DNA of 64,000 nucleotides, taken from the NCBI GenBank assembly GCA_012520505.1, contig JAAYOC010000036.1:50937-114936 (forward strand). The letters run 5' to 3'. Source of the DNA: Oscillospiraceae bacterium (GTDB lineage: Bacteria > Bacillota > Clostridia > Oscillospirales > Acutalibacteraceae). The translations under genes were made by a program, and so were the position numbers. Positions 30,066 to 36,964 of the stretch are shown here, piece by piece. Every line of letters begins with the position of its first letter. Position 1 is the stretch's first letter. Below the pieces are notes generated by a model, which had not been told where the DNA came from, did no database searches, and saw nothing but the letters and a program-made list of their open reading frames with translations.

Positions 30066-31871
30066 TCAATTTTTCATAGGAGGTTCTTCCTCAAACGGTT
30101 TTCTACCATGGGTTGAACCTGCCTCATATGGAAGATGGAAACCAATATCCAGTAGTTCCGGTTCTGGTTCCGGTTCTGGTTCCGGTTCTGGTTCAGGCTC
30201 TGGTTCCGGCTCAGGCTCTGGCTCCGGTTCTGGCTCAGGCTCTGGCTCAGGCTCTGGCTCAGGCTCTGGCTCAGGCTCTGGTTCAAATGCCGGCTCCGGA
30301 GTAATCAAGCTTGGTTCCGTAGTTAAATCGGATTCAGAAATTGCCTCTGGGTCATAAACCGGCTCTGTTAAAGAAATTACTTTTGAATCAGTCTCAAAAA
30401 CAGGCTCCAATCCAGGAAGTGGTTCAAATCCTGCATTTTCGAGACTTGAAATTGGTTCCGCTGCCGGATCACTAACTATTTCGGTAACAGGAGAATCAAA
30501 GATAGGCTCTAAACTCGGAGCAGAATCTAAATTAAAAGCAGAATCAGTCATTGGTAACGGTTCAAATCCCGCATTCTCAAAATCAGGAAGAGAAATTGCC
30601 GGTTCCTCTGCAATCTGTGTTTCCGCAGTTGGAGCAATTGATTCAGTTGAAGCTAAAACTTCAGTTTCCACTATATGTGCAGGAGCAATGGTTTCTTCTG
30701 CAAAAGCTTCTTCCGGTGCTTCTACTAGTGGCTCTGCAAATCCTTCTACAAGAGGTTGTTCTGTAAATCCTTCTGCAAAAGGTTCCTCTGTGAACCCTTC
30801 TACAAGGGGCTCTTCTGCAAATCCTTCTACAAGGGGCTCTTCTGCAAATCCATCTGCAAGGGGCTCTTCTGCAAACCCTTCTGCAAGAGGCTCTGCAAAG
30901 GATTCACCCAAAGGTTCCTCTAATGTTTCTAACGGAGCTTCCACCGGTAAATCATCTGCCAGTGTTTCATCTGCCGATAGCTCCTCTTCTGACGATACCT
31001 CTTCTAAGTCAGGACCTGCGCTTGGTGGATAATAAACAATTCCGGAATGTGTTTCCAACTCTGGTTCTGGTTCCTGTTCTGGTTCAGGCTCTGCAACTAA
31101 AGTAGACGTAAATAGAGTTGGTTCCGGAATCGGCTCTGATCCAGCCTGTTCTTCAACAACAGGTTCTCTTAAAGAAACTGCCTCCGGTCTTTCTTCATCA
31201 GCAACAAGATAACCATCTGAGTCAAATACAAAACCCGAACGAACGTTATCATAATCTAACCCGTATGAATTATCAGTATTAACACTATCATCCAAAGTAA
31301 TAGGAATTGTTTGCGAAATGTTACTGAGCTCTCTGTTCTTACAAAGCTTATAAATCAAAACTATAAGAAGGAGTGATGATATAACACCTATAACAACAAC
31401 CGGAGTTAACAAAAATGTTGAAGTGCTATCATTGCTTGGCGAAGCCACTGGGGAAGTCGAAGGCTCAGCTACAGTGCTTTCATTTTCAACATCATTCAAC
31501 AAAGCATCCGGTGTTTCTTCATTTACAGATTCATCTACTATAGCTGCGACAGAAGATTCTGCCTTAGGCTGTGTTCGTTTTACAGACTTTTTCTTTGGTG
31601 CTTTTGTTGGATTTACCTTGTTTGTAGTTGTAGTTGTTACCGGCCTTGTTGTCGTTGTTGCCGGTCTTGTTGTCGTTGTTGTCGGTCTTGTTGTGGTAGT
31701 TGTAGTAGTTGTTGTTGTGGTAGTTGTAGTTGCTTCAGTAGATTCAGTTGATGAAATCGAACTCTCTGGATTTTCTGGTTCCTCTGATCCTTCAGCAAAA
31801 GCATACATACTAAAGCAAGATACAAGTACAATCAAAGCTGAAACTATACCCAATAATTTGTTGCTATTCAA
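30066..31871 (-). CDS. Secreted/membrane repeat protein with Thr-rich stalk and Glu-Pro tail
   Basis: A 601-residue protein with no recognised enzymatic domain. Parts in order: a signal peptide ([23 protein letters not shown]), a Thr-rich stretch with TTTTRP repeats (about 45-90), a basic/acidic spacer, one transmembrane helix (about 155-180, [20 protein letters not shown]), then a long acidic region. That region carries repeats of the type EEPLVEGFA (about 330-395) and a run of about 25 Glu-Pro pairs (plus-strand 30156-30287). The TTG start has GGGGG seven bases upstream. Topology suggests a Thr-rich exported stalk and an acidic cytoplasmic tail. Function unknown. Confidence 0.75.
30156..30287. 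repeat. Glu-Pro coding microsatellite
   Basis: About 22 six-base units of the forms GGTTCC, GGTTCT, GGCTCC and GGCTCA on the plus strand, coding (Glu-Pro)n on the minus strand. Prone to length change. Confidence 0.9.
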
Positions 31872-32025: not shown

Positions 32026-33222
32026 CTATGAAAGTAGTTTAAGTGCTTTTTGAATATGTGGGTCATCATCGTCAGCCATTATACCAATTTGGTTTGTCTG
32101 TGCTGTTGTCATTAAAATCTCATAATCCGGTGTAAGGCCAACTTTGTTATAACTTTCACTCCTGTATGGAATAATCTCTGCAACCGTAAGAACTACAGCT
32201 GAACCATCAGAAAATTGATGCACTTGTTGCATTGTTCCAATACCTTTTGTTGTCATACCAATAAGTTCTGCTTTACCAAAGTCACGAAGGTCGCAAGCAA
32301 AAAGTTCAGCCGGGCCCGCTGTATTTTCATTCACAAGAACAATCATAGGAAGTGTAACACAATCAGAATCTGAAGGAAAAGTTTTTATTGTTTTTCCATC
32401 CTTGCCAATTGCAGTAGCTAATGCAGCAGTACCATCTGTTGCAACAGGTACAAGAATGTCAAGTACCTTTGCCGCATAAGAAATACTACCTTCAGAACAG
32501 TTGCGAACATCAAAAATTAATGCTCTCGCACCCTCTTTTGTCACATTATCAATTTCATCTTTAAACTGTGGAATTGTATTTTCATAAAATGCATTTATCG
32601 AAATTATTCCAACATCACCATTCATTTTAGATGAAACCGTAGCTTCACTATAATCCATTACAAGATTTTCTGTTTTCTTTTCTTTTCCTCTAAGATATGT
32701 AACACTTACGTTAGACATCTTAGCACCAATAAGATTTGATTGAAGAGTTTTATAATTTTTCTTTGTTACCGTTTCGTCGCCTACTTTTATGATTTCATCG
32801 CCCGCCTTTATGCCGACAGCTTCAGCAGGTGAATTTTTAGCAACAGCAGTGATATAAAGATACCCGGTATCCGGGTTAAAAGTACAAGTGATGCCTGTAC
32901 CTGACATTTTACCAAGAAGGCGATTATAGTAAACAACATACTCTTCCGGTGTCAAATAAAATGAAGCTGGATCATTAAGCCCTGCGATGTATCCCCTTGC
33001 AAGGCTTGCATCAACTAAGTCTGAATCTACATCGCCAAAGAATTGTTTACGCACAAGTTCATCCACTTCAGCAATACTGTCATACATGCCGACGCGGTTT
33101 GCAAGATCATCTATCAAATTATTATAAACGCTCATTGAGACCTTCATTGTTGTAGCAATTGTAGCCGCTATCACTATAAAGAGAAAAGCAAGTCCCGTCC
33201 CAATAGATATTTTTCTATTCAT
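32026..33222 (-). CDS. S41-family (CtpA-like) protein lacking catalytic Ser and Lys
   Basis: A 398-residue exported protein with an N-terminal membrane anchor (about 8-30), a PDZ domain (about 105-185, AVAKNSPAEAVGIKAGDEIIKVG) and an S41 peptidase fold. In active members the nucleophile lies in a motif like SASASE and the general base in FGKGxxQ. Here the aligned segments read NENTAGPAELFA (Ser to Gly) and MTTKGIGTMQQ (Lys to Ile). The fold and PDZ appear intact, so this is probably a pseudoprotease. It is the last gene of ftsE-ftsX-M23-S41 and may act as an adaptor for the hydrolase. AAAGGAG precedes the ATG. Confidence 0.88.
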   Translation of the reverse strand: MNRKISIGTGLAFLFIVIAATIATTMKVSMSVYNNLIDDLANRVGMYDSIAEVDELVRKQFFGDVDSDLVDASLARGYIAGLNDPASFYLTPEEYVVYYNRLLGKMSGTGITCTFNPDTGYLYITAVAKNSPAEAVGIKAGDEIIKVGDETVTKKNYKTLQSNLIGAKMSNVSVTYLRGKEKKTENLVMDYSEATVSSKMNGDVGIISINAFYENTIPQFKDEIDNVTKEGARALIFDVRNCSEGSISYAAKVLDILVPVATDGTAALATAIGKDGKTIKTFPSDSDCVTLPMIVLVNENTAGPAELFACDLRDFGKAELIGMTTKGIGTMQQVHQFSDGSAVVLTVAEIIPYRSESYNKVGLTPDYEILMTTAQTNQIGIMADDDDPHIQKALKLLS

Positions 33223-33234
33223 AAAAGTCTCCTT

Positions 33235-34566
33235 TTATTTGCGAACATAAAGTCCTGGATTTACTGCATATGTTGATCTAGGCACTATACCACCAATTCT
33301 CATTTCAAGATGGAGATGTGCACCAGTTGAATTCCCGGTACATCCCATAATTCCAATGTTTTGACCTTGTGACACTATTTCGCCTTCAGAAACATAAACA
33401 GTTGCAAGATGTGCATAGTAAACATATACGCCTTGACCTTGGTCAATAATTACGTATCTGCCATAACCTCCGTTACATCCACAAAAACCTCTGTAGTTAT
33501 GTGAGCAACTATTACTTGCAAGAAGTACTTTACCTGTTGCACAAGCTATAATTCGTTTATCATAAGCATTTGCACCCGGCATAGAAATATCCATACCATA
33601 ATGGAAATTACCTGAGCCTGCATTAAGGTCACGCTGACCCCAAGCAGATGAAATATAAGAACTTTCATACGGTACAGGCCAAATCATGTTACCAACTGAA
33701 CCGTCACCAGTTGAAGCGATTCCATGAATCATAAAATAAATTTTCTGGTCATATGCCTCTCTTTGTGCCTCTGCTCTGGCAATCATTCTCTTATAGGCAG
33801 CATCTTCTGCATTAAGCTTTGCAACATGAGAATCTAAAACAAATAACTTTGCATCAAGAACTGATTTAGCCTTATTTACCTCAGCTTTTGCAGCTTGAGT
33901 TTCAGTTTTTGAAAATTCAATACTCGCCTTTGATTCTTCAAGTTTTATTTTATCTTCTTCAAGTTTCGCCTTAAGAGATGCAAGTTCAGCAATCTGTTTT
34001 TTCAATGCTTCTATTATTGCGTTATCATGAGCTGCAATTCTTGCAATTAGTTCAAGTCTTGTGAGAAGGCTCTCAAAACTATCTGCTTCAAGTATCACCT
34101 CAATAGTCGACACATTACCTGACATATACATTGCACGAACTCTTTCTCCAAGAATCTCCTGTGTATCTGCTATATCCTTTTCCTGTTGCTCCATTTTTTC
34201 TTCGGTAGCTTTTATTTCGTTTTCAGTATTCATTATTTGTGTGTTTAGAGCAGCAATTTGAGAATTCAATTTTCTTATTTTGAAATTATAGTTATCTATC
34301 TGCCCTTGGAGGACGGCAATTTGATCCATAAGAGCATCGGCTGACTTTTTGACTTCTTTCTTTTCATTCATAATCTCAGCCATTTTTGCTTCGTTCGCAG
34401 CAATTTCTTTGTTGAGATCTTCGATTTCCTGTCTCAATTTAATAATCTCAGGGTCATCCTCCGGTACCGGATCTACAGCATGTGCCATAGAAGATGGAAT
34501 AGCCATCGTAATTGAAATGATTAGAATGAGAAATATTGCAATGATTTTTTTATTCATTATCATCAT
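33235..34566 (-). CDS. M23 (LytM) peptidoglycan hydrolase with coiled coil, EnvC/CwlO-like
   Basis: A 443-residue exported protein. It has a signal peptide (IIAIFLILIISITMAIPSSMAHA), a long coiled coil (about 35-270, rich in Glu and Lys heptads), and a C-terminal LytM domain with intact metal and catalytic residues (HYGMDIS, and HLHLEMR). A cysteine-containing loop (SCSHNYRGFCGC) is inserted before GYGRYVIID. Proteins with this plan (EnvC, PcsB-like) are opened by FtsEX at the division septum, which matches the immediate upstream ftsX. The start overlaps ftsX by 17 bases; ATG codons 1, 2 and 4 are all possible. Confidence 0.93.
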   Translation of the reverse strand: MMIMNKKIIAIFLILIISITMAIPSSMAHAVDPVPEDDPEIIKLRQEIEDLNKEIAANEAKMAEIMNEKKEVKKSADALMDQIAVLQGQIDNYNFKIRKLNSQIAALNTQIMNTENEIKATEEKMEQQEKDIADTQEILGERVRAMYMSGNVSTIEVILEADSFESLLTRLELIARIAAHDNAIIEALKKQIAELASLKAKLEEDKIKLEESKASIEFSKTETQAAKAEVNKAKSVLDAKLFVLDSHVAKLNAEDAAYKRMIARAEAQREAYDQKIYFMIHGIASTGDGSVGNMIWPVPYESSYISSAWGQRDLNAGSGNFHYGMDISMPGANAYDKRIIACATGKVLLASNSCSHNYRGFCGCNGGYGRYVIIDQGQGVYVYYAHLATVYVSEGEIVSQGQNIGIMGCTGNSTGAHLHLEMRIGGIVPRSTYAVNPGLYVRK

Positions 34567-35491
34567 TCACCACGCTTCCCTGTTCTTTCAGATATCTTGC
34601 CATTGAGAATATACTTCCAAAAATACCGGCACTAACTCCAATAAAGAGAAAAGCTACTAGTAATGGCAAAGCATATGTTAAAAATGAAATTGAAGTTGTT
34701 CCAAACAACGTGAAAAGTGTGCCTAATGAGTTAATTACAAGCTGATAAATTCCAAACACTAAAGCAAGTGAAACAAAACTTGCAATAACTCCTATCACAA
34801 CACCTTCAATAATAAACGGCCAACGAATAAACCAATTTGTTGCACCCACAGCTTTCATAATACTAATTTCCAACCGTCTGTTATACATTGTAACTCTTAC
34901 TGTGTTTGCAATAATGAAAAGTGAAACCGCAAGCAACATAACAATTATACCCAGACTGATGTACGTAACACCTGCTCGAATATCTCTAACCTGCCCGGCA
35001 AGATTACTATTTCCTCTAACACCTATAGTGTTGTTCACTGATTTAAGAAGTTTTAATACGTTGTCATAATTGTCAAGACTTGCAAGTGTTACCTTATATG
35101 CATTTGGAAGTGGGTTTTTTTCAAGTCCTTCAAGAAGTTTTGCCTGTTCACCCATTTCTTTTAATTGTTTGGCATATGCTGTTTCCTTATCTACAAAAGT
35201 TGCCTCTTCGACTGTCGGTATCATCTTAATGTCTTGGTAAACCTTATTCACTTGTTCCTTTGTGAGATTATCTTCAAGATAAACCATAATGACATTTTGG
35301 TCTTCAATATTTTCAAGCATTGCATTAATATTGATAAATATCATCACTGCACAGCCAATAAGTACAAGGCAAGAAGTAAGTACTGCAATGGATGCCATAG
35401 ACATAAGTTTATTTGATTTTACATTTCGAAAGCCTTCTTTTGTAAGATAGCCTACATTGAAAGAGGATTTGTATCTAATTTGTTTTGCCAT
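34550..35491 (-). CDS. ftsX: Cell division protein FtsX
   Basis: The membrane partner of FtsE, transmitting ATP-driven movement to a peptidoglycan hydrolase. It has 313 residues with one N-terminal helix (LMSMASIAVLTSCLVLIGCAVMIFI), an extracytoplasmic domain (about 60-175), then three helices of the FtsX/MacB fold (ISLGIIVMLLAVSLFIIANTV; IEISIMKAVGATNWFIRWPF coupling loop). GAGGAG precedes the ATG; ftsE ends three bases upstream. Confidence 0.96.
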   Translation of the reverse strand: MAKQIRYKSSFNVGYLTKEGFRNVKSNKLMSMASIAVLTSCLVLIGCAVMIFININAMLENIEDQNVIMVYLEDNLTKEQVNKVYQDIKMIPTVEEATFVDKETAYAKQLKEMGEQAKLLEGLEKNPLPNAYKVTLASLDNYDNVLKLLKSVNNTIGVRGNSNLAGQVRDIRAGVTYISLGIIVMLLAVSLFIIANTVRVTMYNRRLEISIMKAVGATNWFIRWPFIIEGVVIGVIASFVSLALVFGIYQLVINSLGTLFTLFGTTSISFLTYALPLLVAFLFIGVSAGIFGSIFSMARYLKEQGSVVNDDNE

Positions 35492-35494
35492 TAT

Positions 35495-36796
35495 TTACTC
35501 CTCCTCTTCCATATATTCAAAATATTTAGAGTAATCTACGCCATCAATAGTTGTAAAATGCTCTTCATCCGTTTTTTCCCTCTCTGTTGCAGGAGTTGCC
35601 GGCAAAAGATTACCGGAAGCTGTTGAATCTGTCTGTTGTGAAATGTTAGCTTCTGTTGATAATGTATTCGGTTTTGTCGGTTGCGTATCAGCTGGCTTAG
35701 AAACTGTCGATTGAGCAACATCAATATAAGCATTTACCTGTGCCATAAACGGCGATTGATTAGCCATTGTTTCCCGAACCTTTGCTGCAATTCCGGCAGA
35801 TATTTCAGCTGTTTTTTGAGATACAGATGCCGGTTGAGCTTGATCTCCTACTTGTGACTGAGCCGCTGACTGAGCTTGCGACACAGTTGCCTGCGGCTGT
35901 TCTGCTGATTGAACAGGTATTGTCGCCTGTGGTGCGGTTACCGATTGAGCAGGTGCTGTCACCTGTGGCGCAGTCGCTGGTTGAGCAGGTGCTGTTGCCT
36001 GTGGCGCAGTCGCTGGTTGAGCAGGTGCTGTTGCCTGTGGTGCAGTCGCCGGTTGATTCTGTGGTGCTGTTGCTCGCGGAAGAATATCAACTGCTTTATA
36101 CCCAGTTGTTTCTTCAAATATAAGTTCACTACCTTGCGCAGTATCTGAAACAATTTCTCCATGATCAAGCACAACAATACGGTGGTTGAACTTTTTAACA
36201 AGTTCATGCTCGTGCGTTACCATAATCACTGTAGTTCCATTCTTGTTGATATGATTTAGAAGGTCTACAATTTCATAAGACATCTCCGGGTCAATATTGC
36301 CCGTAGGCTCATCAGCAATAATGGTATTTGCATTATTAACGAGCGCACGAGCAAGAGCAACACGTTGTTGCTCACCACCGGAAATTTCATTTGGATAAGA
36401 ATCCATTTTACCTCTAAGACCGACTAAGTTAAGTACATATTCCACTCTTTGTTTGATATCAGCATCAGGAGCACCAATAACTCGCATTGCAAATGCAACA
36501 TTATCATAGACAGTCATTGTAGGTATTAATCTAAAATCCTGAAAAACAATGCCCATAGTTCTTCTAAAGTATGGAATTTCCTTTTCAGTCATTTTCGTAA
36601 GGTCATAGTTATTTATCATAATAGTCCCTGATGTCGGAACCTCTTCTCTCATAATTGTTTTAAGAAAAGTACTCTTACCTGAACCTGAAGCTCCAACAAT
36701 AAACACAAACTCACCGCGTTCAATACGGAGGTTCACATTTTTTAGAGCTTCTGTGCCTGTGCTATACTTTTTTGAAACATTTTTAAACTCAATCAT
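35495..36796 (-). CDS. ftsE: Cell division ATP-binding protein FtsE with long repetitive C-terminal tail
   Basis: The ABC ATPase of the FtsEX complex. The first 228 residues are a full FtsE: Walker A GASGSGKSTFLK, Q-loop VFQDFRL, signature SGGEQQRVALARAL, Walker B IIADEPTGNID and the H-loop TVIMVTHEH. The remaining 205 residues, absent from usual FtsE (about 225-230), are Gln/Ala/Pro/Thr-rich with PATAPQATAPAQ-type repeats and end in DYSKYFEYMEEEE. The track adds 46 upstream codons; the family start MIEFKNVSKKY is at 36796, with AGGAG 14 bases upstream, so a GTG four codons earlier is an alternative. Confidence 0.93.
   Translation of the reverse strand: MIEFKNVSKKYSTGTEALKNVNLRIERGEFVFIVGASGSGKSTFLKTIMREEVPTSGTIMINNYDLTKMTEKEIPYFRRTMGIVFQDFRLIPTMTVYDNVAFAMRVIGAPDADIKQRVEYVLNLVGLRGKMDSYPNEISGGEQQRVALARALVNNANTIIADEPTGNIDPEMSYEIVDLLNHINKNGTTVIMVTHEHELVKKFNHRIVVLDHGEIVSDTAQGSELIFEETTGYKAVDILPRATAPQNQPATAPQATAPAQPATAPQATAPAQPATAPQVTAPAQSVTAPQATIPVQSAEQPQATVSQAQSAAQSQVGDQAQPASVSQKTAEISAGIAAKVRETMANQSPFMAQVNAYIDVAQSTVSKPADTQPTKPNTLSTEANISQQTDSTASGNLLPATPATEREKTDEEHFTTIDGVDYSKYFEYMEEEE
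35929..36061. repeat. 36-bp tandem repeat in the ftsE tail
   Basis: The units at 35965-36000 and 36001-36036 are identical in all 36 bases (starting GTGGCGCAGTCGCTGG). Degenerate copies flank them. Each unit codes 12 residues. Confidence 0.9.
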
Positions 36797-36827
36797 TGTT
36801 GTTTGCACTACTCCTAAAACATAAATA

Positions 36828-36865
36828 AAAAGCTGTATCGGTGCACTACCACCCATACAGCTTTT
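36828..36865 (-). terminator. Terminator or attenuator hairpin in the ftsE leader
   Basis: AAAAGCTGTAT and ATACAGCTTTT (11 bp) with an inner GGTG/CACC pairing, then TTTTATTTAT on the minus strand. It lies between the only good promoter seen and the ftsE start, 31 bases before the ATG. It could end the pucR-type gene upstream and also attenuate ftsE. Confidence 0.7.
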
Positions 36866-36894
36866 AATATACCATATATAAGAGAAAATTGTAA
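36866..36894 (-). promoter_or_regulatory. Possible ftsE promoter
   Basis: TTACAA (36894-36889), 17 bases, TATATT (36871-36866). The start point would fall inside the first arm of the adjoining hairpin. Confidence 0.4.
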
Positions 36895-36964
36895 CCCTTT
36901 TGTAACTCAAAATCAAACTTTTGTACAAATGCACAAATCAAAATACTACATTTAGTATTTTCTA

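Follow-up and report, generated by a model that had tools for sequence, protein, structure and literature searches.

Background

The S41A carboxy-terminal processing proteases (CTPs), among them CtpB, CtpA and Prc, combine membrane-proximal N-terminal helices with a PDZ domain and an S41 core. CtpB has a role in sporulation, and in Bacillus subtilis its gene neighbours ftsEX. The catalytic triad of CtpB is Ser309-Lys334-Gln338, and its N-terminal helices build a four-helix bundle (PMC3808539). Pseudomonas aeruginosa CtpA-LbcA and Escherichia coli Prc-NlpI act on cell-wall hydrolases that include M23 enzymes (PMC11021448). SweC and SweD, the cofactors of FtsEX-CwlO, are single-pass membrane partners of FtsEX, and in B. 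subtilis SweD contacts FtsX through its transmembrane (TM) segment (PMC6705773).

Protease folds that are retained for binding have been described in iRhoms, in C. difficile CspC and in the S41-like retinol-binding protein 3 (RBP3). These pseudoproteases belong to other families or are eukaryotic, and none is known to be linked to FtsEX; the S41-related RBP3, which has a non-protease role, turns up in a sequence search with the protein described here. Our literature search, which covered few subscription papers, found neither an FtsEX-linked pseudoprotease nor an inactive CTP encoded beside ftsEX. As pseudoproteases and S41-like non-proteases are already known, what would be new is a dead CTP in the FtsEX locus of a gut bacterium.

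The protein in question is encoded in a 64,000-nucleotide stretch of Oscillospiraceae DNA, which we refer to as the window. It has its fold in common with the S41A CTPs but lacks the catalytic Ser and Lys, carries altered residues along the substrate strand, and ends soon after the core, such that the CtpB-type C-terminal dimerisation domain is missing; moreover, the PDZ domain is dispensable in some of its relatives.

The ftsEX locus and its S41 protein

The S41 gene (32026..33222, minus strand) encodes a protein of 398 amino acids and is the last gene in a tight minus-strand run, ftsE-ftsX-M23-S41. The run begins with ftsE (35495..36799), whose translation probably begins at the ATG at residue 46 of the open reading frame listed as 35495-36934 and whose product has a long low-complexity C-terminal tail, and continues with ftsX (34550..35491), which has an FtsX_Gpos match above the cut-off, and with an M23 peptidase gene (33235..34566), the product of which has a PcsB-type coiled coil and retains the motifs HxxxD (HYGMD) and HxH (HLH). 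The S41 reading frame starts with ATG downstream of AAAGGAG and lies 12 bp from the M23 gene; this short gap and the AAAGGAG suggest a single operon. An ftsEX neighbourhood of S41 genes is also seen in the loci of relatives in Oscillospirales-type genomes. No second S41 gene was found in the genome of the window, about 5% of which is missing.

Pfam assigns the protein to Peptidase_S41 (1.4e-26; PF03572, 93.4 bits against a cut-off of 24), and its PDZ domain is matched by PF13180, PF17820 and PF00595, while the NCBIfam subfamily model TIGR00225 (prc) scores below its cut-off (156.7 vs 218.6 bits). CtpB is the nearest solved structure by sequence; the AlphaFold2 model, which like all of our structure predictions is a single chain, has a pLDDT of 91.7, and its best Foldseek matches in the PDB are CtpB and P. 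aeruginosa CtpA (TM 0.77/0.83). From the N-terminus, the protein consists of a single-pass anchor formed by a TM and juxtamembrane helix (residues 7-36; 33115..33204) that is helical in the model, hydrophobic and conserved; a helical neck (residues 40-102; 32917..33105), the counterpart of which in CtpB is a dimerisation motif (PMC3808539); the PDZ domain (residues 106-190; 32653..32907); and the S41 core (residues 203-369; 32116..32616).

Loss of the active site

A preliminary description made from the sequence alone had proposed that both catalytic residues of this protein are gone, and our comparisons bear this out. CtpB Ser309 and Lys334 align to Gly303 (codon 32314..32316) and Ile328 (codon 32239..32241), with a spacing of 25 residues in both proteins, and CtpB Gln338 aligns to Gln332 (codon 32227..32229), leaving only the third triad position retained. 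The alignment with CtpB and the structure prediction, which had been suggested there as checks, gave a CtpB-like fold with the dyad absent, and no alternative Ser-Lys pair was found. Two further positions that active CTPs require also appear to be altered: mutation of CtpA Gly246 or Phe325 is almost as severe as loss of the Ser (PMC11021448), and these positions, matched via the PGGVL motif and the spacing to Lys327, correspond to Glu244 and Lys326 in the window protein, i.e., Gly has become Glu and Tyr/Phe has become Lys. Among the relatives without the dyad (hereafter dead, as opposed to live relatives with Ser and Lys), no ectodomain His reaches 60% conservation, and the only conserved ectodomain Lys, K274 (60%), is remote from the catalytic loops in sequence. 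Taken together, these alignments give good support to a loss of catalysis.

Relatives and history of the loss

The Gly/Ile state is neither chance nor an assembly error, as all eight genus members that have the gene carry Gly with Ile or Val, and 144 distinct S41 proteins of the same GTDB family lack the Ser/Lys pair. Another 38 family proteins have Ser and Lys, although the 144 and 38 include a motif-biased set of relatives and are not frequencies. That set was found with an 11-sequence alignment whose motif includes AELFACD, a sequence over-represented among dead proteins, and because of this bias its count of 80/80 dead proteins was not used as a frequency; relatives fetched earlier by whole-protein similarity (n=114) comprised 79 dead and 35 live proteins. 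In the 144 dead proteins the Ser column is almost fixed as Gly (Gly 139, Ala 3, Lys 1, Ser 1, the last with Tyr in place of Lys), unlike the Lys column, which accepts many residues (N 49, V 35, I 14, R 11, Y and others). The triad Gln is retained in 117 of these proteins. The relatives that carry names are uncultured genomes of the Ruminococcaceae/Oscillospiraceae type, among them Candidatus Limimonas and Candidatus Fimenecus, and these names suggest Acutalibacteraceae (order Oscillospirales) as the family.

In nearly all relatives, dead and live, ftsE-ftsX-M23 precedes the S41 gene, and nearly all M23 neighbours keep the metal-binding motifs HxxxD and HxH in both states, which rules out a degenerate M23 partner. 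Two tandem M23 genes lie near a live S41 gene in the ftsEX cluster at seven loci (L044, L055, L062, L063, L074, L082, L111), an arrangement that is seemingly rarer at dead loci. Genomes with any S41 gene mostly have one copy; no S41 was detectable in 120 of 300 family genomes, and the role is therefore dispensable in some lineages. The expectation in the preliminary description that relatives would share both changes held only in part: dyad loss extends across the family, but some relatives at this locus keep Ser and Lys. Since these live relatives belong to separate lineages, they date the loss and do not refute it.

We sought to estimate how often the dyad was lost. A first tree, with catalytic columns masked, needed two changes to account for its 79 dead and 35 live proteins of the family, and in a wider tree well-supported branches forced at least five. 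A single dead clade within the window family (f1) is compatible with the data (p-AU 0.73) and has the higher likelihood. A common origin of the dead proteins of f1 with those of another family, f24, was rejected (p-AU 0.0002), and a common origin with those of a third family, f9, was borderline (p-AU 0.041). One old loss in the window family and separate losses in the two other families fit these sequence-based results. Outside the window family, the first 40 loci of the order to be examined encode 42 S41 proteins, 37 of which retain Ser and Lys; the f24 and f9 loci were added later and picked because of the first finds, such that their counts are not frequencies.

At all eight f9 loci examined (L227, L234, L236-L241), a dead copy with Asp or Gly for Ser is followed in tandem by a live copy, the two falling on different branches of the tree, and the pair sits directly after M23 where the stretch includes M23. 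The S41 proteins of f24 comprise Gly forms and, separately, FtsEX-linked forms with Cys at the nucleophile position and with Lys and Gln kept (L209, L225, L242, L243, L244, L245, L250, L252). Judging from these residues, the Cys forms are possibly Cys/Lys proteases, and they apparently have two origins. Loss of sporulation was discarded as the reason for the catalytic loss: of 300 family genomes, 249 encode SpoIVB, and dead as well as live S41 genes occur among them. The genome of the window itself lacks SpoIVB.

Selection and shifted constraint

Pairs of dead S41 genes have dN/dS values of about 0.03-0.15, approximate given that dS is high in several pairs, and M23, FtsX and live S41 are similar; decay is therefore excluded. 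Also in line with the preliminary description, which saw a retained pseudoprotease beside FtsEX, the gene is under purifying selection and the adjacent PcsB-type M23 enzyme is catalytically intact. The distribution of constraint within the protein appears to have shifted. At a matched FtsE divergence of 0.25-0.30, p-distances in the active site are higher in dead than in live proteins (0.65 vs 0.41), and in dead proteins relaxation is especially strong at N242, G244, A302 and Y326, which line the substrate strand. The TM and N-terminal region shows the reverse (dead 0.50 vs live 0.82), a contrast that is less certain than that of the active site because N-termini align less readily in the live set, which is paraphyletic. 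The PDZ domain is similar in the two states (dead 0.65 vs live 0.68). Positions with higher conservation in dead proteins include K4, G8, T25, R43, Y47, Y95, Y98, S131 and A342. Constraint has thus gone from the active site and seems to have been raised in the TM and juxtamembrane region. In relatives the same loss is old, repeated and preserved by selection, and this suggests that the protein now serves the division machinery structurally and no longer as a protease.

Proposed role and alternative explanations

At the sequence level, the gene codes for a genuine S41 pseudoprotease. The explanation that fits best is that its product, without any catalytic part of its own, is a membrane-anchored scaffold or cofactor for the complex of FtsEX with the M23 hydrolase, a reading to which we assign a probability of roughly 0.5. 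We infer its function, its contact with FtsX or M23, its stoichiometry and its effect on the hydrolase, and a septal role would likewise be deduced from FtsEX alone. The scaffold or cofactor reading is favoured because anchor, neck and core are constant beside FtsX and M23, and because SweD offers a precedent. As with SweD, there is a TM segment and genetic linkage to FtsEX and a hydrolase, ftsE-ftsX-M23-S41 being conserved in relatives; the likeness concerns only the way these proteins may work, as SweC and SweD are small, have cytoplasmic domains and, unlike the window protein, show no S41 or PDZ homology. Gene order by itself is no proof of a shared complex. With the FtsE component removed, dead S41 proteins co-diverge with FtsX (correlation of 0.44 for the core and 0.42 for the PDZ domain) and with the coiled-coil part of M23 (0.37-0.39), whereas the M23 catalytic part shows hardly any correlation; this co-divergence is suggestive of a link to FtsX and the coiled coil, although the partial correlations may be residual phylogeny because FtsE is a slow gene.

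Under the scaffold or cofactor reading, the main contacts with partners would be made by the TM and juxtamembrane helix, the helical neck and the S41 core surface, with the PDZ domain as an optional additional contact; the neck may be dimeric, by analogy with CtpB. An ancestral FtsEX-linked CTP probably had two activities, docking on the complex and clipping of some target, of which only docking was kept. That active CTPs degrade wall hydrolases elsewhere makes this a plausible route; in contrast to CtpA-LbcA and Prc-NlpI, the window protein would be unable to cut by the known mechanism.

The preliminary description had favoured a PDZ adaptor. In such a reading, the PDZ domain of the dead protein would grip the C-terminal ends of a client, the M23 hydrolase or some other protein, and offer them to FtsEX. 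The window protein and 151 of the 159 dead proteins compared have the domain, and the carboxylate-loop glycines are retained (G108 85%, G110 100%). However, the domain is missing altogether from eight dead proteins that are encoded at the same locus in six genera (L100, L108, L113, L256, L257, L258, L260, L261): the neck, up to about residue 104, runs directly into the core, Pfam scans matched S41 and found PDZ in 0 of 7, and anchor, neck and core are retained. The model of one of these proteins (pLDDT 90.6) equals that of the window protein in confidence. PDZ absence was seen in 0 of 83 live proteins, a comparison in which several of the short dead proteins had been fetched for their shortness; at least two independent losses are forced, and parsimony gives four. 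Because the domain was lost in six genera, a PDZ adaptor cannot be the common function. The PDZ domain is also under no additional constraint in dead proteins, and the C-terminal residue is hydrophobic in only 24% of M23 and 27% of FtsX proteins, leaving no conserved PDZ-type ligand and ruling out the M23 C-terminus in that capacity. We therefore regard the adaptor proposal as unlikely for the window protein.

A role unrelated to FtsEX and M23, with the operon position as a leftover, strikes us as rather improbable: synteny could be inherited, and the link to FtsEX and M23 here consists of gene positions and co-divergence, but the synteny is held across the whole order despite great divergence, and there is co-divergence with FtsX and the M23 coiled coil. 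We give slightly less credence to a non-cutting clamp whose tunnel still holds or shields an extended peptide, e.g., of M23; it would account for the retained core fold and Gln332, yet the positions that line the substrate strand are strongly relaxed in dead proteins, and the equivalent CtpA Gly246 is required for substrate handling (PMC11021448). Heterodimerisation with a live CTP, the dead copy serving as partner or brake, is reminiscent of the f9 tandem pairs after M23 (8/8 loci) and of the P. aeruginosa CtpA dimer, in which one protomer only is active with LbcA bound (PMC11021448); with no second S41 gene here or in most genomes that have a dead copy, it is disfavoured for the window lineage, where we consider it very improbable. 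Catalysis by other residues, e.g., Thr301 or Lys326, can be almost entirely discounted: Thr301 is conserved as Thr/Ser, but equally so beside the normal Ser of live enzymes; Lys326, although present in the window protein, is replaced by Ala in 97 of 144 dead proteins; and no conserved Lys or His lies near the site. Just as little weight falls on a decaying relic or sequencing artefact, which the missing catalytic residues might bring to mind, as it is contradicted by the dN/dS values and by intact frames in more than 100 genomes from many independent assemblies.

One may tentatively postulate a broader scenario, to which we lend about one-in-three credence, in which the structural role of FtsEX-linked CTPs in the FtsEX-hydrolase complex predates and is independent of proteolysis. 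Cutting could therefore have been lost repeatedly in the order, once in the window lineage and in two other families, leaving dead S41 proteins as integral membrane-anchored subunits, with PDZ loss and a longer FtsE tail arising later in some lineages. These results bear on how FtsEX switches on wall hydrolases in Gram-positives and on the reason why CTP genes lie beside ftsEX. The old and repeated catalytic loss, together with the dead/live tandem of f9, provides a natural experiment that parts docking from cutting, and a non-proteolytic role becomes directly testable; the annotation "S41 peptidase" is wrong for most such genes in the family of the window.

FtsE tails and the downstream gene

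The low-complexity tail of the window FtsE (35495-36934) is about 200 amino acids long and has DYSKYFE near its end. FtsE tails longer than 60 amino acids occur at 63 of 111 dead loci vs 3 of 32 live loci, and 24 of the 88 tails of the dead clade carry DYSx[YLF][LFM] near the FtsE C-terminus (shuffled rate 1e-4), both of these patterns being phylogenetically confounded. The gene directly downstream of the S41 gene, on the minus strand (30066-31871), encodes a long protein of secreted type that contains Thr repeats and a single TM-like stretch and ends in a tail of Glu-Pro repeats; its family matches are low-complexity only.
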